Shown piece after piece: positions 3,919 to 17,711 of a DNA stretch of 37,721 bases; position 1 is the stretch's first letter, and each line of letters opens with the position of its first letter. Below the pieces are notes generated by a model, which saw only the letters and a program-made list of their open reading frames with translations, did not search any database and was not told where the DNA came from. Made by a program: the position numbers and the translations under genes. This DNA is from an uncultured Pelagibacteraceae bacterium (lineage in GTDB: Bacteria > Pseudomonadota > Alphaproteobacteria > Pelagibacterales > Pelagibacteraceae). The stretch is from the NCBI GenBank assembly GCA_902546795.1, contig CACCLK010000008.1, forward strand, positions 1 through 37,721, in the 5' to 3' direction.

Positions 3919-4800
3919 ATGAGGGAACCAAAATCTTTTGATATCTTTTTACTTGTTTTACTTGCTTTAATATGGGGTTCTTCTTTCTTCAATATCAAAA
4001 TTGCTACTTATAGCTACGAGCCATTTACACTCGCATTAATTAGAGTTTTATTTGCCCTAATCCCACTTTTATTAATTTGTTATTTCAAAAAAATTAAAGT
4101 CAGAGCATTCCAAAATGATTGGAAAGCTTACGCTTTAATTGGTTTATGTAACATTTCAATTCCATTTACACTGATTGCTATAGGTACAGCAAAAATAAAC
4201 AGTTATCTTGCTGCAATGCTTATGAGCACAACACCTCTCAGCGGTTCAATTCTTGCCCATTTTTACACAAAAAATGAAAAAATTTCTTTTTTAAAATCGA
4301 TAGGGATTATTTTAGGATTTATTGGAGTAATTTTTTTATTTGCAGATGATCTTATTATCAACGAGGACAATTATGTTTTTGCTATTATAACTATTGTTGG
4401 CTCAACCTTTTATGCAATTGGCGGTCTTCTTACATTAAAAATAAAAAGCAAAGGTAATGAAAATGTGACAACTTCCACTACTATCTGGTCAATAATTTTC
4501 TTAATTCCTTTCTCAATTTTTTTTGAGACCCCATGGAATTCTTCACCAACATTTGAGTCTACTATTTCTTTACTATATTTAGGCATTGTAGCCACTGGAT
4601 TTGCTTGGTTAATAAGATTTCGGATTTTAACAACTAATGGCTTAGTTTTTCAAACACAAGTAGCATATTTAATTCCTATTTTTGGAGTATTTTTTGGTTA
4701 TTTTTTAATGAACGAAATTATAACTTGGAGAGTAATAGTCTCATTGATTATAATCCTATTAGGGATTTATATAGTAAAAAAAAATACCAAGATTAAATAA
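3919..4800 (+). CDS. EamA/DMT-family inner-membrane transporter
   Basis: A 293-residue protein of the drug/metabolite transporter superfamily with two EamA repeats. About ten hydrophobic segments are visible, starting with FLLVLLALIWGSSFFNIKIA at residues 10-29, whose WGSSF motif is typical of the first EamA helix. The second repeat starts near residue 150. The C-terminus is short and basic (KKNTKIK). The substrate cannot be read from sequence; family members move amino acids, metabolites or sugar-lipid intermediates. The stop overlaps the next gene's ATG by one base (TAATG). That gene is a polyprenyl-phosphate sugar-phosphate transferase, so a role in moving a lipid-linked or nucleotide-linked glycan precursor is possible but only inferred from context. 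Confidence 0.85.
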   Translation: MREPKSFDIFLLVLLALIWGSSFFNIKIATYSYEPFTLALIRVLFALIPLLLICYFKKIKVRAFQNDWKAYALIGLCNISIPFTLIAIGTAKINSYLAAMLMSTTPLSGSILAHFYTKNEKISFLKSIGIILGFIGVIFLFADDLIINEDNYVFAIITIVGSTFYAIGGLLTLKIKSKGNENVTTSTTIWSIIFLIPFSIFFETPWNSSPTFESTISLLYLGIVATGFAWLIRFRILTTNGLVFQTQVAYLIPIFGVFFGYFLMNEIITWRVIVSLIIILLGIYIVKKNTKIK

Positions 4801-5867
4801 TGACTAATAATATTGAAAACAGTTTTATTACCTTGATAACTTTGACGAGTTTTATTGTTTTTTTTATAGTTTTTAAATTTTCAAATTCGTCGAGATTAAA
4901 TCTTTTTTTAGACGTGGACTTTAATAAACCCCAATCTTTTCACTCATCACCTATCCCAAGAGTTGGGGGACTTGCATCTATCATAAGTTTAATTATTTTT
5001 TTTGCAGCTTTTAATCTATTTTTTAAAGCTGAACTTGGAGGCTATATTTATTTTTCTTTGTCTTTTTTTTTGTTAGGTTTTCTTGAAGACATTAAAATTG
5101 AGCTTAATCCATCTTTAAGATTATTATTAATGGCTTTAATTCTCTTACTAGGTTTCATTTTTTTTGAAATTAGAATTACAAAAACCGGTTTTTATTTTTT
5201 AAATGAATGGCTTCAAAATAGCTTATTTCAATATTTTTTTCTGTTACTCTGTTTTCTTTTTATAATAAACGGTTGTAATCTAGTTGATGGCTTCAACGGT
5301 TTATTAGCAATACATTTAATAATCATAAATTTGATTTTACTTATTTTTCACATTGATTATTCAAATTCAATTAATATTTTTTTAACTCTTGGACAAATTT
5401 TTATTTTATTCATTTTTCTTTTGTTCAACTTTCCTTATGCAAAGATTTTCTTTGGTGATAGCGGGGCATATTTGTTTGGATCAATCACTGCTTTAAACGT
5501 AATAAATACATCAATATTATACGAAAACATAAGTCCATTTTTTTTTGCGGTATTATTATTCTACCTTTTCTTTGAAGTTTTCTTTTCTTTTTGTAGAAAA
5601 ATTAAGATGAGAAAATCTCCTTTAAAACCTGATAGCTTACATCTGCATATGTTAATATTTTATTTTTTAAGTAAGAGAAATTTAAAAAGCTCAAATTATT
5701 TAGTTGCGATAATAATTAACTTAACTTTTTTATTATTTATAACTCCGGCAATCTTTCTAAAAGAAGAAGCTTTATTTTGCAGGTACTGGTTTTTTTTCTT
5801 AATTATTATTTATTCATACATTTATAATTATTTACTCAAAAAAAAATTAAATGACGAAAATTATTGA
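4800..5867 (+). CDS. WecA/MraY-like polyprenyl-phosphate sugar-1-phosphate transferase
   Basis: A 355-residue, very hydrophobic protein of the MraY/WecA superfamily. These enzymes transfer a sugar-1-phosphate from a UDP-sugar to undecaprenyl phosphate in the inner membrane. Ordered motifs are HSSPIPRVGG (residues 48-57), FLEDIKIELNPSLR (94-107, with Glu96-Asp97 where many members have Asp-Asp), NGCNLVDGFNG (157-167, Asp163), FFGDSGAYLFG (217-227) and HLHM (His281, His283). The order matches WecA/WbpL-type initiating transferases of surface glycans. Peptidoglycan MraY is unlikely because the gene is not in a cell-wall cluster and the cytoplasmic loops differ. It overlaps the GT17 gene by 17 nt, suggesting a shared glycan pathway. 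Runs of up to 9 T occur in the coding strand. Confidence 0.85.
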   Translation: MTNNIENSFITLITLTSFIVFFIVFKFSNSSRLNLFLDVDFNKPQSFHSSPIPRVGGLASIISLIIFFAAFNLFFKAELGGYIYFSLSFFLLGFLEDIKIELNPSLRLLLMALILLLGFIFFEIRITKTGFYFLNEWLQNSLFQYFFLLLCFLFIINGCNLVDGFNGLLAIHLIIINLILLIFHIDYSNSINIFLTLGQIFILFIFLLFNFPYAKIFFGDSGAYLFGSITALNVINTSILYENISPFFFAVLLFYLFFEVFFSFCRKIKMRKSPLKPDSLHLHMLIFYFLSKRNLKSSNYLVAIIINLTFLLFITPAIFLKEEALFCRYWFFFLIIIYSYIYNYLLKKKLNDENY

Positions 5868-6750
5868 TTGTATTACATATTTTAATGAGCCATTACTTTT
5901 TGAATTAAGATTAAATATTCTTAATGAATTTGTGGATGAATTCATTGTTTGTGAAGCTACCTATACACATAAAGGACTAAAAAAAGAGATTAATTTTGAC
6001 AAAAAAATTTTTAATAATTTTAAAGACAAGATCAAGCATGTAATTGTAGAAACTTATCCATCTGACTTAGAAAAAATAGATGAAAAAAATAAAAACAACA
6101 ATATCATTTATAGAATGAATGCTGCAAAAAGAATAAGGCATCAGAGAAACGAAATTGTAAAAGTTTTAAGTGGTAATGATCCAAATGATTGGATTATTTA
6201 CAGTGATAGTGACGAAATTCCAAACTTAAAAAATTTTGATCTAAAAAAATGTAAGAATAAAATAGTTTTATTTAATCAACTATTAACTTATTATAAATTC
6301 AACTTATCATTAAGTGGCTATGAATGGTTTGGCTCAAAAGCATGTAGGTTAAAAAACCTATCTTCAATTGATACCCTAAGGAACATTAAAACAAAAAAAT
6401 ATCCCTGGTGGAGAATTGATACAGTTTTTAAAAAAGATAAGTTTATCGACATGAAAATCGTCGATAAAGGGGGTTGGCATTTTACTGAAATCAAATCTCC
6501 AAAAGAGATTTACTTAAAACATAAAAATGATGAACATCATGATGAGTTTGATTTAACTGGCATAACTGAGAATGATATCGAAGATATGGTTAAAAATAAT
6601 TATATTCCTTATGATCACAAAGCTGATAAAAGAGATTTAGCCAATAAATGGAATAAAAATATAAGGGTACAGTTAACAAAAATAAGTGATGACAACTTGC
6701 CGAAATATTTGATAGAGAATAAAAATAAATATTCAAAATGGTTTGAATAA
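5851..6750 (+). CDS. Family 17-like glycosyltransferase
   Basis: A 299-residue soluble protein resembling glycosyltransferase family 17, the family of animal beta-1,4-mannosyl-glycoprotein GlcNAc-transferase that also has bacterial members. The N-terminus IIDCITYFNEPLLFELRLNI followed by EFIVCEATYTHKG is the usual GT17 opening. YSDSDEIP near residues 117-124 is the acidic motif expected to bind the metal and nucleotide sugar. GGWHFTEIKSP near residue 206 is also typical. No signal peptide or membrane helix is seen, so it acts on the cytoplasmic side. The 17-nt overlap with the WecA-like gene suggests it adds a sugar, perhaps HexNAc, to the lipid-linked acceptor made by that enzyme; this is inferred. 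The stop is 9 nt before tRNA-Leu. Confidence 0.78.
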   Translation: MTKIIDCITYFNEPLLFELRLNILNEFVDEFIVCEATYTHKGLKKEINFDKKIFNNFKDKIKHVIVETYPSDLEKIDEKNKNNNIIYRMNAAKRIRHQRNEIVKVLSGNDPNDWIIYSDSDEIPNLKNFDLKKCKNKIVLFNQLLTYYKFNLSLSGYEWFGSKACRLKNLSSIDTLRNIKTKKYPWWRIDTVFKKDKFIDMKIVDKGGWHFTEIKSPKEIYLKHKNDEHHDEFDLTGITENDIEDMVKNNYIPYDHKADKRDLANKWNKNIRVQLTKISDDNLPKYLIENKNKYSKWFE

Positions 6751-6850: not shown

Positions 6851-8224
6851 ATGAAAATAGATATTCAATCAAAAAAAGGTCTTACAACTGTTTTATCAAT
6901 TAGCGTTGATAAAAAATCCATTCAAAAGAAAATGGAAGAGAGGTTAAGTAAAGTAAAAGATCAGGTAAGTTTAAAAGGCTTTCGACCAGGAAAAGTTCCT
7001 TCATCTGTTATCAAAAGTCAATTTGGTAAAGCAATATACGGAGAGGTTATTGATCAATTATTAAAAGAGAGCACAACTAAAGCAATAGAAGAAAAAAAGT
7101 TGAAAGTTGCAGGCCAACCTAAAATTGATTTAAAAAGTTTTGGTGAGGGAAAAGATTTAAATTTCGAACTTAAATTAGATATCTTACCAGATGTAAAGCT
7201 TAAACCTTTAGAAAAAATTTCAATTAAAGAATATGAAATAGATGTTGAAAATAAAATTGTTAAAGAAAAGATCAAAGAACTCTTACAACAAAATAAAGAC
7301 TATAAAGAAGTTGGAGATGAAATTAAATCTGAAAAAGACAACCAAATTACCTTTGACTATTCAGCGACTATTAACGGAGATAAATTTGAAGGAAGCGAGG
7401 GAAAAGGAGTTCAAATTATTTTAGGTAAGGACTTGTTTTTAAAAAATTTTGATAAAGAACTAATTGGTCTTAAAAAAGGTCAAGAAAAAATAATAAATTC
7501 AAAACTTCCACCAAATCATCCAAAAAAAGAATTAGCAGATAAACTTGCATTGTTTAAGTGTAAAGTTATTAAAATACAAAAAGCCATACCATCAAAACTG
7601 GATGATGAATTTGCCAAAAAAATGGGGGCAAAAAATTTAATAGATTTAGAAAATCTAGTAAAAAGTCAAATTTCTTTACAATACAAACAAACACTTGAGT
7701 CGATTACTAAAAAGAAAATTTTAGATGAGTTAGAAAAAATTCACAACTTTGATATACCCGGCAACCTTCTCGAAAATGAAATAAACCTAATATCTCAATC
7801 ACAAAAAGAAGAAGATAAAAAAAAATTTAAGAAGCAAAATGAGCAGGCAGCTAGTTCAAGAATTAAAATAGGCTTAGTTTTAAATGAAATTGGTGAAAAA
7901 AATAAATTAAAAGTTAATGATGAGGAAATAAAAAAAGAAATTCAAAAACAAGTACAAAGTATGCCTGGTCAAGAAAAACTCATATTAGACTACTATCAAA
8001 AAAATCCTTCTGCATCTCAAAATATTAAAGGGCAAATTTACGAAGATAAAATTATCAAATTTATTAAGACAAAAGTTGATTTGAAGAAAATTAAAGTAAA
8101 TCTTACGGAAGCACAAAAAATAATTGATGAATTTACCAAAGCCTCTTCCCAGAAAATTTCACAAAAAGAATCTGATTCTCAGAGAACAAAGCGAGAAAAA
8201 TCAAAAAAAATTAGTAAAAAGTAA
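6851..8224 (+). CDS. tig: Trigger factor
   Basis: A 457-residue ribosome-associated chaperone and prolyl isomerase. The ribosome-docking signature GFRPGKVP occupies residues 43-50, the same positions as in E. coli. The FKBP-like isomerase domain follows at about 150-240, then the helical substrate-cradling C-terminal region. The tail is a Ser/Lys-rich stretch after about residue 430. The start chosen is the ATG at 6851. An upstream in-frame ATG at 6803 lies inside the tRNA, and the next internal Met would remove the first strand of the ribosome-binding domain. Only six bases (AAAAAT) separate the tRNA CCA from this ATG, so there is no room for a Shine-Dalgarno outside the tRNA. It is followed by clpP, clpX and lon, a common bacterial arrangement. 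Confidence 0.96.
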   Translation: MKIDIQSKKGLTTVLSISVDKKSIQKKMEERLSKVKDQVSLKGFRPGKVPSSVIKSQFGKAIYGEVIDQLLKESTTKAIEEKKLKVAGQPKIDLKSFGEGKDLNFELKLDILPDVKLKPLEKISIKEYEIDVENKIVKEKIKELLQQNKDYKEVGDEIKSEKDNQITFDYSATINGDKFEGSEGKGVQIILGKDLFLKNFDKELIGLKKGQEKIINSKLPPNHPKKELADKLALFKCKVIKIQKAIPSKLDDEFAKKMGAKNLIDLENLVKSQISLQYKQTLESITKKKILDELEKIHNFDIPGNLLENEINLISQSQKEEDKKKFKKQNEQAASSRIKIGLVLNEIGEKNKLKVNDEEIKKEIQKQVQSMPGQEKLILDYYQKNPSASQNIKGQIYEDKIIKFIKTKVDLKKIKVNLTEAQKIIDEFTKASSQKISQKESDSQRTKREKSKKISKK

Positions 8225-12672: not shown

Positions 12673-12705
12673 ATATCATTAGACTTAATTTTTTGTAGTA
12701 TTTTG

Positions 12706-15264
12706 ATGAAAAAAAAAATTATCATCACCGGGGGGTTGGGTTACATAGGTACTGAGCTATGTAAATTATATTCCGGGATTAGTTGGAACAACGAAATTAT
12801 TGTAGTTGATAATAGATTTATATCCGAAAGAGTTAGTCAATTACGCAACTGGAATATAGAATTTATTCATGGCGATATTCTAGATAAAAAATTAATCCAT
12901 AAAGTTTGTAAAAATGCAGACGTGGTCCACCATTTAGCAGGTGTGACTGATGTTCCTAGAGTCAAAAGTGAGATTGATAACATTAAAGATGAAAAGATAC
13001 TGCAAGTAGCTAAAGACGGAACACAAAATATTTTAGAAAGTATCCAAGATAAGTGTAAAATTATACTACCATCAACACATGTCGTTTTTGAGGGAATAGA
13101 TAAAGTAAAAAGTGACATTGACGAAGAGGAAAAAACGTTTCCAGTGCTTTCATATGCAAGATCAAAAGCAATTAATGAAAATCAATTAAAAAACTCAGGT
13201 AAAAACTTTGTTATATTAAGGCTTGGTTCCGTTTATGGTTATTCATCAGACACAACCAGAATAAACATAATGCCAAATTTATTTTCAAAAATTACATCAC
13301 AAAATGGTGAACTAAAACTTTTTGCCGGTGGAAGACAATTAAAAAGTTTGGTTCCCGTAATAGATGTTGCACGATGTTTTAAATTTATGGAAGAAAGAGA
13401 CGATATCAATTCAGAGATTTTTAACTTAAGCAAAGAGGCAGTGACTGTTAAAGAAGTGGCAAGTATTTGTAAAAAAATTAATCCCAAGGTCTCAATAATG
13501 GAGACCAATGACGAAGTTCCTAACCTAGGATTCTCACTTTCAAATAAAAAGATCTTGAACCGAGGTTTCAAATTTCTTTACAATTTAGAGAGATGTATTG
13601 AGGAAATGATTTTAAGATGGTCCAAACAAAATTTAATTAAAGAAATTGAGTTTATAAAGCATGGAGAAAACGAATTTAAAGATAAACGAGGTACGATAAG
13701 TAATCACGAATTAACCGAGCCTATTAATTTGATTGGTTTAATTAAATCAAAAAAAGGAACGATGAGAGCTAATCATTATCATCCTATTCAAGAACAAAAA
13801 TGTTTATTTACTAAAGGACAAATTATTGAAATTTATAAAGATTTATTAAATCCACATTCTCCAAAAATTACCCAAGTAGTAAACGAAGGTGAATTATCAA
13901 TTATAAAACCCAATGTTGCTCATACTATGGTTTTCACAAAGGACACAGTGTTCCTTAATCTAGTGAGAGGTGAAAGAGAACATAAAAATTATGGCGTCAC
14001 TCATACAATTAAAAAAGATATTATTGATGAAAAAGAAAAAAATTTTTTACTTAATAATTATAAATTTAACTGCAGATCATGTGATAACAGCAATTTAAAA
14101 AGAGTTGTCTCTTTAGGTTTTCAACCTTTGGCAAATAATTTACTTAAATCAAAAAAAGAGAAATACGATCTATACCCACTTGAAATGAATTATTGTCCAA
14201 ACTGTCACAACTGCCAATTATCAGTCGCGGTTGATCCAAAAAAAATGTTTTCAAATTATTTATACACCTCGTCAACGACAAATTCTTTTAAATTACACTT
14301 TAAAAAAGCTGCAGAAAATTATATCAAGCAGTTTAAATTAAGCTCAAAAAAATCTTTTATTATTGATATAGGAAGCAACGACGGGGTTGCTTTAAAACCT
14401 TTTAAAGATTTAAATTTTAAAAATATTTTGGGAATAGAACCGGCTAAAAATTTGGCCAAAATTGCCAACAAAAATAAAATTAAAACAATAAACAGTTTTC
14501 TAAACTTTAAAATCTTAAGAAGAATTAAAAAAAAAGCAGATTTAATTTTAGCCTCAAATGTTTTTGCTCACTCAGACGATTTAAATCAGATGGCAGATTG
14601 TATGCTTAAACTTTTAAGCAAAAAAGGAATTTTGATCATCGAAGTACAATATTTGCTTAGAACATTACAAGATGTAACTTTTGATAATATTTATCACGAA
14701 CATTATAATTATTGGTCCCTTACTTCATTAACAAATTTTTTTAAAAAATTTGACGCCTCTATATTCAAAGCTGAAGAGATAAATACACATGGGGGTTCCT
14801 TAAGAATATATATAAGTAAAAGAAATTCAAAAAAAATTGATAAAAGTGTAAGTCAATTATTAAAAAAAGAAGAAAATGAAGGTTTAAAAAAATTCGCAAC
14901 ATATAAAACTTTTGGTGAGGAAATTTACAACATTAGACGTTCGACGAAAATAAATTTAAAAAAAATTAAAAATAAATATAAAGATATTATTGCTTATGGT
15001 GCTCCAGCAAAAGCCACAACACTATTAAATTTTTTTGGTATATCTGAAGAAATTAACTACGTGATTGAGGATAATCAACTTAAACATAATAAGTTTATAC
15101 CAGGTACAGATTTACAAATTAAAGACAAAAATATTCTGAATAAATATAACGAATCTGCAGTTTTGGTTCTAGCATGGAACTTTTATAAAGAAATTAAAAA
15201 AAACAATCCGAATATAAAAAATGAATTTATAAATATTAAAGATTTAGAGAAACCTAATAGTTAG
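12706..15264 (+). CDS. Three-module sugar enzyme: NAD epimerase/dehydratase, cupin, C-methyltransferase
   Basis: An 852-residue protein with three catalytic-looking modules (numbers from the ATG at 12706). Residues 1-310 are an extended SDR sugar epimerase/dehydratase: GGLGYIG near the N-terminus binds NAD, and Tyr150-Lys154 in SYARSKA is the YxxxK pair. Residues about 315-445 are a cupin like those of sugar 3,5-epimerases or ketoisomerases, with HYHPIQEQ (His357, His359, Glu363) and His406. Residues about 450-852 are a TylCIII/NovU-like C-methyltransferase: zinc cysteines 456, 459, 497 and 500, SAM motif DIGSNDG (554-560), YHEHYNY (663-669) and the C-terminal YGAPAKA domain. Together these could build a branched deoxysugar for a surface glycan; the product is unknown. 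The in-frame TTG at 12703 is less likely as start. An A10 tract directly follows the ATG. Confidence 0.85.
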   Translation: MKKKIIITGGLGYIGTELCKLYSGISWNNEIIVVDNRFISERVSQLRNWNIEFIHGDILDKKLIHKVCKNADVVHHLAGVTDVPRVKSEIDNIKDEKILQVAKDGTQNILESIQDKCKIILPSTHVVFEGIDKVKSDIDEEEKTFPVLSYARSKAINENQLKNSGKNFVILRLGSVYGYSSDTTRINIMPNLFSKITSQNGELKLFAGGRQLKSLVPVIDVARCFKFMEERDDINSEIFNLSKEAVTVKEVASICKKINPKVSIMETNDEVPNLGFSLSNKKILNRGFKFLYNLERCIEEMILRWSKQNLIKEIEFIKHGENEFKDKRGTISNHELTEPINLIGLIKSKKGTMRANHYHPIQEQKCLFTKGQIIEIYKDLLNPHSPKITQVVNEGELSIIKPNVAHTMVFTKDTVFLNLVRGEREHKNYGVTHTIKKDIIDEKEKNFLLNNYKFNCRSCDNSNLKRVVSLGFQPLANNLLKSKKEKYDLYPLEMNYCPNCHNCQLSVAVDPKKMFSNYLYTSSTTNSFKLHFKKAAENYIKQFKLSSKKSFIIDIGSNDGVALKPFKDLNFKNILGIEPAKNLAKIANKNKIKTINSFLNFKILRRIKKKADLILASNVFAHSDDLNQMADCMLKLLSKKGILIIEVQYLLRTLQDVTFDNIYHEHYNYWSLTSLTNFFKKFDASIFKAEEINTHGGSLRIYISKRNSKKIDKSVSQLLKKEENEGLKKFATYKTFGEEIYNIRRSTKINLKKIKNKYKDIIAYGAPAKATTLLNFFGISEEINYVIEDNQLKHNKFIPGTDLQIKDKNILNKYNESAVLVLAWNFYKEIKKNNPNIKNEFINIKDLEKPNS

Positions 15265-15769
15265 AAAAAAAATCATTAAATATTTCCTTTAAATTGTTAA
15301 GAGTCTCAAATAGATATGTTAAATAGCTCTCGAAAAAAGGAAAATAAAAAATGATAATATCCTGCGTTAAATTAAGAATACCCAAAATTCCTATAACAAA
15401 AATTACTAAAATTATTAACCAACCATAAAAGCCAATGCCAATGTTTACATTTTCTCTTTGAGCCTTTTTATATTTTTTACTAGAGGTTTTTTCCGAGGAT
15501 TGAATTTTAATTCCATGTTTTTTTTCTAAGTACTCGCTAGAGTAAATTGTTGGTCCCTCGTTTTTTTTAATTTTTTTCTTAGGCTTTGGCCTCTTGTCAC
15601 CTAATTTTACCAGAACGGGTTTTGTTGGCGGTTTTTTTATTTTCTGTTTTACAGGAAACTGTGTCCATTTTAAACCGCAGTATCCACACTGAACCAATCT
15701 GCCAGACGGTGGAATAGTGTTATCAGGAAGTTTAAATTTCTTTTCACCACAATTACAAGTTATAATCAT
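15254..15769 (-). CDS. Zinc-ribbon membrane-anchored protein of unknown function
   Basis: A 171-residue protein. The N-terminus has an MJ0042-type zinc ribbon with Cys5, Cys7, Cys28 and Cys31 (CNC and CGYCGLKW). A Lys/Pro-rich linker (about 41-105) leads to one strong hydrophobic segment at about 111-133 and a short aromatic C-terminus. The zinc ribbon would face the cytoplasm. Similar zinc-ribbon-plus-one-helix proteins are common in alphaproteobacteria and have no settled role. Its stop overlaps the convergent three-module sugar enzyme by 11 nt. It is divergent from the tRNA-Val gene, and a 12-bp palindrome lies between them. The function is not assigned. Confidence 0.75.
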   Translation of the reverse strand: MIITCNCGEKKFKLPDNTIPPSGRLVQCGYCGLKWTQFPVKQKIKKPPTKPVLVKLGDKRPKPKKKIKKNEGPTIYSSEYLEKKHGIKIQSSEKTSSKKYKKAQRENVNIGIGFYGWLIILVIFVIGILGILNLTQDIIIFYFPFFESYLTYLFETLNNLKEIFNDFFSNY

Positions 15770-15823
15770 AATATTACAATAATACTGGTATTTATATAAA
15801 TTACACTAAAAATTAAATACTTT

Positions 15824-15852
15824 TTTACTTTATAAAGTTTTTATTGTATATC
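15824..15852 (+). promoter_or_regulatory. Weak candidate promoter for the tRNA-Val/tRNA-Asp pair, with palindrome
   Basis: TTTACT (15824-15829) and TATATC (15847-15852) are 17 bp apart and about 22 bp before the tRNA. A perfect 12-bp palindrome, ACTTTATAAAGT (15827-15838), overlaps the -35. The rest of 15770-15873 is AT-rich with no other feature I can name. Confidence 0.35.
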
Positions 15853-15873
15853 TCGATTTTATTTAAGTGAGGA

Positions 15874-15949
15874 GGGCGGTTAGCTCAGTTGGTAGAGCAT
15901 CTCGTTTACACCGAGAGGGTCATAGGTTCGAGTCCTTTACCGCCCACCA
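15874..15949 (+). tRNA. tRNA-Val (anticodon TAC)
   Basis: A 76-nt cloverleaf including encoded CCA. The acceptor GGGCGGT (15874-15880) pairs with ACCGCCC (15939-15945). The anticodon stem TCTCG / CGAGA encloses a loop with TAC, and GGTTCGAGTCC forms the T-arm. It is followed 12 nt later by tRNA-Asp, so the two are probably processed from one precursor. Confidence 0.97.
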
Positions 15950-15961
15950 GTAAAACTTTAT

Positions 15962-16039
15962 GGGGGTGTAGCTCAGTTTGGTTAGAGCGCCTGCCTGTCA
16001 CGCAGGAGGTCGCGGGTTCGAGTCCCGTCACTCCCGCCA
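15962..16039 (+). tRNA. tRNA-Asp (anticodon GTC)
   Basis: A 78-nt cloverleaf including encoded CCA. The acceptor GGGGGTG (15962-15968) pairs with CACTCCC (16029-16035) with one G-T pair. The anticodon stem CCTGC / GCAGG encloses a loop with GTC. A candidate promoter for the nuo genes starts 5 nt after the CCA. Confidence 0.97.
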
Positions 16040-16043
16040 CTAG

Positions 16044-16072
16044 TTGATAATGATTTTCATCTAGATTAAAAT
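16044..16072 (+). promoter_or_regulatory. Candidate sigma-70 promoter for the nuo gene run
   Basis: TTGATA (16044-16049) and TAAAAT (16067-16072) are 17 bp apart, each five of six to consensus. The predicted start near 16079 would leave a leader of about 118 nt before nuoA. It is the best promoter match before a 21.5-kb run with no other intergenic space. Confidence 0.5.
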
Positions 16073-16078
16073 TAGCTG

Positions 16079-16196
16079 TGGGTGTACTTAAAACTGCTAC
16101 GTCTTGTACTGTACACTTCTTTTAAAAATGTTATAAAAGAAACTAGTTAATACAAGAATCCTTAAGCAATTGTATTAAGGTAGGTGTTAACAAAAT
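16079..16196 (+). promoter_or_regulatory. Structured 5' leader of nuoA
   Basis: Three consecutive hairpins can be drawn: GTGTAC/GTACAC (16082-16116), TTCTTTTA/TAAAAGAA (16117-16141) and TTAATACAA/TTGTATTAA (16147-16178). The third has an alternative, mutually exclusive pairing CCTTAA/TTAAGG (16160-16180). Both forms of the third involve the AAGG just upstream of the likely ribosome-binding region, so they could affect nuoA translation. The pairings were found by eye and not energy-folded. No known riboswitch class was recognised. Confidence 0.4.
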
Positions 16197-16565
16197 ATGA
16201 TTTACAGTTTTTTATCTGACTATTTGTCAATTATCATTTTTTTAGCTTTAGCACTGATGCTTAGCGTCGGTTTTATTGTCGTAAATTATTTGTCAGCACC
16301 GAATAACCCCGACCCCGAAAAGCTTTCAGCCTATGAATGTGGTTTTGAAGCTTTTGACGATTCAAGAATGGAATTCGATGTTAGATTTTATCTAGTAGCA
16401 ATATTATTCATAATATTTGATTTGGAAATCGCATTTCTTTTTCCATGGGCAATTTCATTAGGAAATATAGGCGCACTAGGCTTTTGGTCAATGATGATCT
16501 TCCTAGGAATTTTAACTATTGGATTTATTTATGAGTGGAAAAAAGGAGCTTTAGAATGGGAATAA
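16197..16565 (+). CDS. nuoA: NADH-quinone oxidoreductase subunit A
   Basis: A 122-residue small membrane subunit of complex I with three helices (about 10-31, 64-84 and 92-112). The conserved loop [16 protein letters not shown] (about residues 42-57) contains the cysteine typical of NuoA/ND3. It sits near the quinone cavity between the peripheral and membrane arms. It is the first gene of the complex I run, preceded by a roughly 118-nt leader, and overlaps nuoB by 10 nt. Confidence 0.96.
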
Positions 16566-17092
16566 ATTTTAAAGATATGAACGAGAGAGAGAAACAAATT
16601 CCAGAAGAATTTAAAAAGTTAGCTAAAGATTTTAGTGAAAAGGGATTTATTACCACATCCACACACAATTTGATAAATTGGGCAAGAACCGGCTCATTAC
16701 ACTGGATGACTTTTGGACTAGCATGCTGTGCTGTTGAGATGATGCAGACTTCAATGCCAAGGTACGATCTAGAAAGATTTGGTGCAGCTCCAAGAGCTTC
16801 ACCAAGACAATCTGATGTAATGATAGTTGCTGGGACATTAACAAATAAAATGGCACCAGCATTAAGGAAAGTTTATGATCAGATGCCAGAACCAAGGTAT
16901 GTTATATCTATGGGAAGCTGTGCCAATGGAGGTGGATATTATCACTACTCTTATTCTGTTGTAAGAGGCTGTGATAAAATTGTCCCCGTTGATGTTTATG
17001 TTCCAGGCTGCCCGCCTTCAGCTGAAGCCCTGTTATATGGTGTTATGCAATTACAAAAGAAAATAAGACGAGAAGGCAATCAAAACAGATAG
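16556..17092 (+). CDS. nuoB: NADH-quinone oxidoreductase subunit B
   Basis: A 178-residue peripheral-arm subunit that carries cluster N2, the last Fe-S cluster before quinone. Ligand cysteines are Cys57-Cys58 in GLACCAVEM, Cys122 in GSCANGG and Cys152 in [10 protein letters not shown] chose the ATG at 16556 because AAAGGAG lies 7 nt upstream and the N-terminus (MGINFKDM) is of normal length; an in-frame GTG at 16535 lacks that spacing. The start lies within the end of nuoA, suggesting coupled translation. Confidence 0.96.
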
Positions 17093-17096
17093 AAAA

Positions 17097-17711
17097 ATGG
17101 AATTAAAAAATTTAATAAATCTAGAAAAACTAATCAACTCAGAACTAGCTAATAAAATAGTAAATTCAAAAATAGAGAACGAAGAACTATTAATTACAAC
17201 TACGAAAGAAAATTTGGAAGGTGTAATAAAATTTCTTAAAAATAATGAAAAATCTAAATTTAGACAACTAATAGATATAGCAGGGGTGGATTACCCTGAG
17301 GAAGAAAAAAGATTTAACCTAATTTACCTCATGCTGTCGCACGAAAATAATATGAGGGTAAAAATTTTAATTAGTTTCGAGATAGAAAATAAAATACCAT
17401 CTATCACAAAAATTTTTCCTTCAGCAAACTGGATGGAGAGAGAAGTGTTTGATATGTATGGAGTAAAGTTCATTGGTCATCCCGATTTAAGAAGAATTTT
17501 AACAGACTATAATTTCAAGGGCCATCCATTGAGAAAAGATTTTCCTCTCACTGGCTTTAACGAAGTTAGATATAGCGAAAAAGAAAAAAAAGTTATCTAT
17601 GAAGAAGTAAAATTAGAACAAAACTACAGAAATTTTGATTTTTCAAGCCCATGGGAAGGAACAAAGTATATGAAAGAAATAAACGATAAAAAACATGACA
17701 AAAAAAACTAA
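17097..17711 (+). CDS. nuoC: NADH-quinone oxidoreductase subunit C
   Basis: A 204-residue 30-kDa-type subunit of the peripheral arm. The family signature is the stretch around [23 protein letters not shown], with [18 protein letters not shown] following (residues about 108-150). It is separate from nuoD, as in alphaproteobacteria and mitochondria, not fused as in E. coli. It starts 4 nt after nuoB, the largest gap in the whole run, and overlaps nuoD by 17 nt. Confidence 0.95.

Follow-up and report, generated by a model that had tools for sequence, protein, structure and literature searches.

Branched sugars are usually built by several separate enzymes. The late steps of mycarose synthesis are epimerisation, C-methylation and reduction; TylC3 is a sugar 3-C-methyltransferase, and the known enzymes of the MtmC/TylC3/TcaB9/KijD1 kind are separate proteins of antibiotic clusters, MtmC being bifunctional, with ketoreductase activity besides C-methylation. 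The plant uridine diphosphate (UDP)-rhamnose synthase RHM is trifunctional and holds an entire nucleotide-sugar pathway in one chain, built of other modules and involving no methylation. The present work concerns an 852-residue protein encoded in a 37,721-nucleotide stretch of an uncultured Pelagibacteraceae bacterium (contig CACCLK010000008.1; this whole stretch is referred to below as the window), in which a short-chain dehydrogenase/reductase (SDR), a cupin and a C-methyltransferase are joined in a single chain. The modules are of known kinds and their three-module architecture appears to be new; no description of an SDR-cupin-C-methyltransferase enzyme was found in the literature searched (titles and the beginnings of abstracts). 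The fusion probably synthesises a C-methyl-branched, nucleotide-activated sugar within one chain.

The methyltransferase has about 25-30% identity to MtmC, TcaB9 and KijD1 (PDB 4rv9, 3ndi, 5t64), with which it shares the zinc, S-adenosylmethionine (SAM) and C-terminal domains, and it has the active-site residues of TcaB9; here, however, it is the last of three modules in a chain found in SAR11 and phages. The available sections of two papers name MtmC as a C-methyltransferase only (PMC7247220, PMC8341913). CapF of Staphylococcus aureus (Cap5F; PDB 2zkl, 3st7) likewise has an SDR followed by a cupin in one chain, with weak similarity of the cupins; however, it consists of two domains, has no methyltransferase, and its SDR uses reduced nicotinamide adenine dinucleotide phosphate (NADPH). 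In the available part of its description, the zinc cupin of CapF epimerises and the SDR reduces (PMC5393024). The CapF SDR was not matched by the fusion SDR at E 1e-6 or 1e-3, and the fusion falls outside the CapF family. The closest solved SDR relative, over the whole module length and by both sequence and fold, is Cj1427, the guanosine diphosphate (GDP)-heptose C4-dehydrogenase of Campylobacter jejuni (PDB 6vo6), which is a stand-alone protein with about 25% identity to the SDR module. According to the part of PMC10680097 available, Cj1427 oxidises GDP-manno-heptose at C4, holds NADH tightly and works with separate epimerases and reductases.

The gene and its modules are laid out as follows.

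12706..15264, + strand: SDR-cupin-C-methyltransferase gene (the fusion), 852 amino acids plus stop, single chain
12706..13641, + strand: SDR module, residues 1-312, NAD-type extended SDR; D35, T/S124, Y150 and K154 kept, H125-V126 at the dehydratase D-E site
13642..14061, + strand: cupin module, residues 313-452; H357, H359, Q362, Q364 and H406 invariant, fold of nucleoside diphosphate (NDP)-4-keto-sugar isomerases/epimerases
14062..15261, + strand: C-methyltransferase module, residues 453-852; four-Cys zinc, SAM and C-terminal domains, TcaB9-like active-site residues

The open reading frame spans 12703-15264 on the + strand, with a TTG start, an ATG as the next codon (12706) and a stop ending at 15264. 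A Pfam search of the whole protein detected Epimerase PF01370 (residues 6-242, 82.7 bits against a cut-off of 20.9), the Methyltransf_13 zinc domain (457-516, 59.7 bits), the SAM domain Methyltransf_23 (535-684, 54.5 bits) and the C-terminal domain Methyltransf_14 (695-839, 135.1 bits), all above their gathering cut-offs.

Relatives were collected by a named-genome scan, from which the best 80 of at least 543 were taken, so that the host range given below is a lower bound. In 78 of these 80 genome loci, drawn from many independent records, at least 800 of the 852 query residues lie in one frame; of the two exceptions, L208 is truncated by the end of its contig, and the frame of L212 is interrupted at codon 724, with 20 codons left before the contig ends. 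A scan of IMG/VR yielded 61 viral loci, 42 of them with all three modules in one frame (a contig end truncates 2 of these; L267, whose SDR is split, was left out). The fusion is not an assembly artefact.

Two alignments were used to assess the active sites: one of 88 rows (the window, 78 genome loci and 9 viral sequences) and one of 36 viral rows. In all 88 rows the SDR retains D35, H125, Y150 and K154, the cupin H357, H359, Q362, Q364 and H406, and the methyltransferase its four zinc cysteines together with H622, Y663, E665 and H666. The SDR glycines G9, G12 and G15 are kept in 87/88 rows (one gap), as is V126 (87/88); residue 124 is Thr in 78 rows and Ser in 10, and cupin residue 363 is Glu in 81, Gln in 4 and Thr in 3. 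The same catalytic residues are present in 36/36 viral rows, and the SDR glycines plus D35 in 35 (one gap). The zinc cysteines are partly lost in this viral set (C456 kept in 31, C459 in 29, C497 in 34 and C500 in 29 rows).

The best solved relatives of the methyltransferase, by sequence and again by fold, are the sugar 3-C-methyltransferases MtmC (E 1.3e-59), KijD1 and TcaB9. Its Y518, H622, Y663, E665 and H666 align with Y76, H181, Y222, E224 and H225 of TcaB9, which are the positions mutated in the TcaB9 crystal entries, as judged by entry titles. Y518 is invariant in a 38-row alignment, and all five residues occur in 36/36 viral rows. With Methyltransf_13, a SAM domain, Methyltransf_14, the four zinc cysteines and these five residues, the module belongs to the TylC3/TcaB9 family, and by this kinship it may transfer a methyl group to C3 of an NDP-4-keto sugar.

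The cupin stretch gave no Pfam cupin match at E 0.01 (including RmlC PF00908 and FdtA/WxcM) when the whole protein was searched, and no NCBIfam match when searched alone. Its AlphaFold2 model (residues 313-452; predicted local distance difference test score, pLDDT, 89.8) is a cupin; structural comparison ranks NDP-sugar 3,4-ketoisomerases, RmlC-type epimerases or designed proteins sharing their fold highest (Foldseek best E 5e-8; VIA Z 11-13). The beta-barrel of the model and the active-site histidines H357, H359 and H406 point to a cupin of the FdtA/QdtA or RmlC type; the sequence profile matched the CapF cupin faintly and non-significantly (E 0.11).

The N-terminal module is an extended SDR, having GxxGxxG, Y150xxxK154 and PF01370 above cut-off. 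The best PDB profile match is Cj1427 (E 7.6e-30; next SDR 7.4e-16), which also ranks first among SDRs by fold comparison. After the catalytic Thr, where dehydratases carry their acid/base pair, the window reads S-T-H-V-V-F-E-G (H125-V126), as compared with S-T-D-E-V-Y-G in RmlB of the same genome, S-S-S-E-M-F-G in a GMD-like protein and S-S-D-E-V-Y-G in an SDR from an unfused operon. The best NCBIfam match, TIGR01181, scores 63.6 bits, far below its cut-off of 365.1. An assignment as an NDP-sugar 4,6-dehydratase of the RmlB/GMD type was therefore rejected, because the acid/base pair reads His-Val in place of D-E (or S-E). The first-pass annotation, made from the sequence alone, had described one uninterrupted frame with an SDR epimerase/dehydratase (YxxxK), a cupin with HxH...E and a zinc- and SAM-binding C-methyltransferase with a TylCIII/NovU C-terminal domain, and had proposed a Pfam search. 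The single frame from ATG 12706 to the stop at 15264, the Pfam domains with the TcaB9 residues and the cupin (H357xH359xxxE363...H406, three His in 88/88 and E363 in 81/88 rows, cupin model) bear this description out; for the SDR, the extended type and Y150xxxK154 stand and the dehydratase part does not. The invariant H125 (window 13078-13080), found where 4,6-dehydratases have Asp, together with Glu129 (88/88) makes up an unusual SDR active-site motif.

Judged by record titles, the 80 best genome loci comprise 76 from Pelagibacteraceae/Pelagibacter/Pelagibacterales, 2 from Actinomarina (single cells), and one each from a Nanoarchaeota (L156) and a Flammeovirgaceae (L206) metagenome-assembled genome, the last two carriers being assigned by those titles. 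Within the genus, 31/37 genomes including the source have a match, 25 near full length (G014 among them with a stop counted inside) and 6 partial. Within the order, a cupin match was found in 74/297 genomes, own genome included, 49 of them with the cupin in an open frame of 845-868 amino acids, and within the class 105/385 sampled genomes gave a match at E 1e-20. No all-module fusion was seen outside the own genome in these 385, with only two candidates scored per genome; by cupin alone, a class/phylum sample of 398 genomes gave 10 matches, including the own, and no fusion elsewhere, and plasmid sequences searched by cupin gave no match. A 642-kb uncultured phage record carries the fusion (54.5% identity over 95%). 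In a 55-row tree, SAR11 forms one side of a branch (Shimodaira-Hasegawa-like approximate likelihood ratio test, SH-aLRT, 100), the viral rows need two label changes, and L206 groups with Actinomarina. The viral status of the contigs is that given by IMG/VR, phage-type genes having been seen by PHROG beside L113, L114, L122 and L112 only. Five viral contigs (L255, L270, L276, L294, L296) carry an identical fusion after genes resembling ribonucleotide reductase (RNR) and DnaB (by Pfam in L255 only). The copy in L120 (7998-10574) is broken, with the SDR split, and several neighbouring genes are also split relative to L113.

Unfused counterparts exist as well. Among 22 loci around stand-alone cupin matches, the family profile recovered the cupin gene in 19, and a methyltransferase is the next gene in 15/19. 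Colinear unfused SDR, cupin and methyltransferase genes were found in L103, L111 and L092, and since such genes exist elsewhere, the three activities can be regarded as steps of one pathway. A glycosyltransferase family 17 (GT17) gene lies upstream of the L103 operon on the opposite strand, and L103 shares flanks with L064, a SAR11 locus that is discussed below. Viral loci show further arrangements: an SDR plus a cupin-methyltransferase (L279, L292), an SDR-cupin plus a methyltransferase (L281), and an SDR plus a methyltransferase without the cupin (L283 and others). The viral L275 (4992-8366) encodes an 1124-residue chain, in which the SDR-cupin-C-methyltransferase is followed by a C-terminal FkbM methyltransferase domain.

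The window also contains the following genes upstream of the fusion.

3919..4800, + strand: EamA-family membrane transporter; relatives have homologues upstream of lon
4800..5867, + strand: Glycos_transf_4 (GT4) family gene, presumably of the polyprenyl-phosphate sugar-phosphate transferase type, with homologues upstream of lon in relatives
5851..6750, + strand: GT17-family glycosyltransferase

The fusion had earlier been read as standing alone beside lon, away from glycan genes. This view has to be abandoned: the window holds the EamA, GT4 and GT17 genes at 3919-6750, and the next gene on either side of the fusion is a GT17 in 45 and a GT2 in 8 of the 80 genome loci (53/80 together; in 6 of the 80 the fusion lies at a contig edge), which links the architecture strongly to glycosyltransferases in SAR11. 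These loci are not independent, because they are related, yet their sites form several contexts. Loci with the fusion placed between lon and nuoA occur in three genera (g1, g9, g10); in a fourth (g6) it sits elsewhere. Among the 27 loci outside lon/nuo a GT17 adjoins in 8 and a GT2 in 8. The adjacent GT17s of 20 chosen loci spread over several subfamilies, so that the pairing has recurred and a single ancestral GT17 cassette is unsupported. GT17 genes were detected in 38/50 SAR11 genomes, 0-4 in each, and in 0/14 control genomes; with so few per genome, chance adjacency is estimated to be far below 1% per locus. L206 and L207 have the same GT2 beside the fusion. A GT2 orthologue of at least 52% identity is present in 7/30 fusion genomes (one being the query source) and in 0/20 genomes without the fusion, where the best match is 44%; this GT2 is linked to the fusion and was discarded as a universal partner. 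A zinc-ribbon protein gene (15254-15769, - strand) overlaps the 3' end of the fusion by 11 bases.

The Pelagibacterales O-chain cluster has been described as a replacement island in PMC11898729, the main text of which, in the part available, contains neither the word “methyltransferase” nor “epimerase”. Because of its lon/nuo site, the fusion seems to lie outside this cluster. In phage islands, the genes near the fusion include NeuB, a GT29-family gene, a cytidylyltransferase, GMD-like, GT11 and GT6 genes, or tail fibres. The island of L116 (6549-15511) has a GT29 sialyltransferase-family gene, NeuB and a cytidylyltransferase near the fusion, and in the huge phage L112 a GT17 is found at -1. 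In L113, a PLOD-type glycosyltransferase (7243-7947) lies just upstream and tail-fibre genes (12732-17364; collagen-like PHROG matches among others) downstream, a layout that hints at tail-fibre glycosylation.

The fusion might act as follows. The SDR would oxidise and/or reduce C4 with NAD(H), the cupin would epimerise or isomerise the 4-keto sugar beside the ketone, and the methyltransferase would remove the C3 proton and add the methyl group of SAM, after which the C4 ketone would be reduced. The product may serve as donor for a glycosyltransferase, in SAR11 mostly the adjoining GT17 and less often the GT2. The target in SAR11 could be a glycan of the envelope, distinct from the variable O-chain, and in phages a glycan of the virion or of the host surface. 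Whether the SDR both opens and closes the cycle with a retained NAD is finely balanced, and we lean only slightly towards it; with a retained NAD an ordinary NDP-hexose would suffice, for which a GDP-type is our best guess. In its full form, a self-contained redox-neutral cycle, in which the SDR oxidises C4, the cupin resets the stereochemistry, C3 is methylated and the same SDR returns the hydride, is put forward tentatively. Counted in its favour are the NAD-type Asp35 (88/88), the inconstancy of RmlB and GMD, and the contigs of the L255 group beside RNR-like and DnaB-like genes. The first-pass annotation had suggested a branched-sugar pathway in one protein, in which the fusion may channel a reactive keto-sugar intermediate; three catalytic modules of one pathway are indeed present and a dehydratase start is not, so the pathway could be complete only if the SDR generates its 4-keto sugar itself and later reduces it again.

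A less probable alternative is that the SDR is a terminal 4-ketoreductase only, a separate 4,6-dehydratase (GMD, RmlB or of the cytidine diphosphate (CDP)-glucose type) supplying an NDP-4-keto-6-deoxyhexose that the fusion epimerises, C-methylates and reduces. The SDR lacks dehydratase residues, and CapF, in the available part of its description, is an SDR-cupin fusion of such a late-step kind. In the unfused L103 and L111 operons the first gene is a dehydratase-motif SDR and the last a Gfo/Idh/MocA oxidoreductase, a layout by which the fused SDR may replace the terminal reductase. RmlB scores above cut-off in 20 of 30 fusion genomes and GMD in 11, 25 having either; dehydratase-motif SDRs lie within about 5 kb of 11/42 viral fusion loci, and L122 adds a GMD-like gene, located about 3 kb downstream and absent from this motif-based count. 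However, no dehydratase type is a constant partner. The ten RmlB absences have a p of about 1e-4 from genome incompleteness alone. Five of the 30 genomes lack both enzymes, one of which (G205) has a GMD-like match below cut-off. G169, G171 and G203 (91-92% complete) gave no GMD match at 1e-30; G169 gave no TIGR01181 match at 1e-30, and the TIGR01181 matches read in G171 and G203 are without the dehydratase motif. The NAD-type Asp35 and the closeness to Cj1427 also speak against a mere reductase. In G106, one SDR found with TIGR01181 reads T-S-D-K, which we take to be CDP-glucose dehydratase-like, and another S-T-S-E. Several observations weigh against the one-chain synthase, or its self-sufficient form, besides the L103/L111 layout and the viral dehydratase-motif SDRs. 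Three to four genomes without both dehydratases fit incompleteness (p 0.51-0.27), and a mixed dehydratase supply is possible. A viral GT17 adjoins (-1) in 5/42 loci and occurs anywhere in the flank in 11/42. L064 (7937-9604), inside the SAR11 clade, encodes a two-module cupin-methyltransferase without an SDR, and L297 and L298 an SDR-methyltransferase chain without a recognisable cupin. The highest-Z structural match of the cupin is a 3,4-ketoisomerase; with such an activity, C3 would carry the ketone and the methyl group would go to another carbon. The packing of the modules is uncertain, because the whole-chain predicted model (pLDDT 85.9) has a predicted template modelling score (pTM) of 0.62.

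Other explanations are far less probable. It is quite improbable that the protein works essentially as a methyltransferase, with one of its modules surviving as a structural or regulatory leftover. For this, some viral copies have lost zinc cysteines (C459 and C500 each kept in 29/36), and variants lacking the SDR or the cupin exist; against it, the catalytic residues of the SDR and cupin vary no more than the methyltransferase ones in either the 88 or the 36 rows. Still more improbable is an SDR that starts a complete deoxysugar pathway as a 4,6-dehydratase. It is an extended SDR with TIGR01181 as best NCBIfam match, though at 63.6 against 365.1 bits; at the acid/base pair, however, His is found in 88/88 and Val in 87/88 rows, while the own-genome RmlB and the unfused-operon SDRs keep D-E, so that by its residues this explanation appears already refuted unless His125 eliminates by another route. 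Loss of family-critical residues and a frame joined by sequencing error had been named at the outset as what would overturn the prediction. Across the 88 rows each of the three modules keeps its key catalytic residues, and a fusion of separate genes by assembly or sequencing error has a negligible probability, no support for it having been found and the frame being single in 78/80 genome loci from many independent records and in 42/61 viral loci (36 distinct longest proteins).

The fusion offers a compact enzyme for C-methyl sugars and ties the SAR11 GT17 glycosyltransferases to a possible donor sugar. If one protein suffices, such genes would transfer readily, and the fusion appears to have been widely acquired by phages. 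Should the redox-neutral cycle be true, a cell of any kind would need only this gene and a single glycosyltransferase to gain a branched sugar. This would account for the spread of the fusion across SAR11, Actinomarina and dozens of phage contigs, including those of the L255 group, where no glycan genes adjoin. The finding predicts branched sugars on the cell surface of marine bacteria that are very abundant, as well as on virions or the hosts of the phages.

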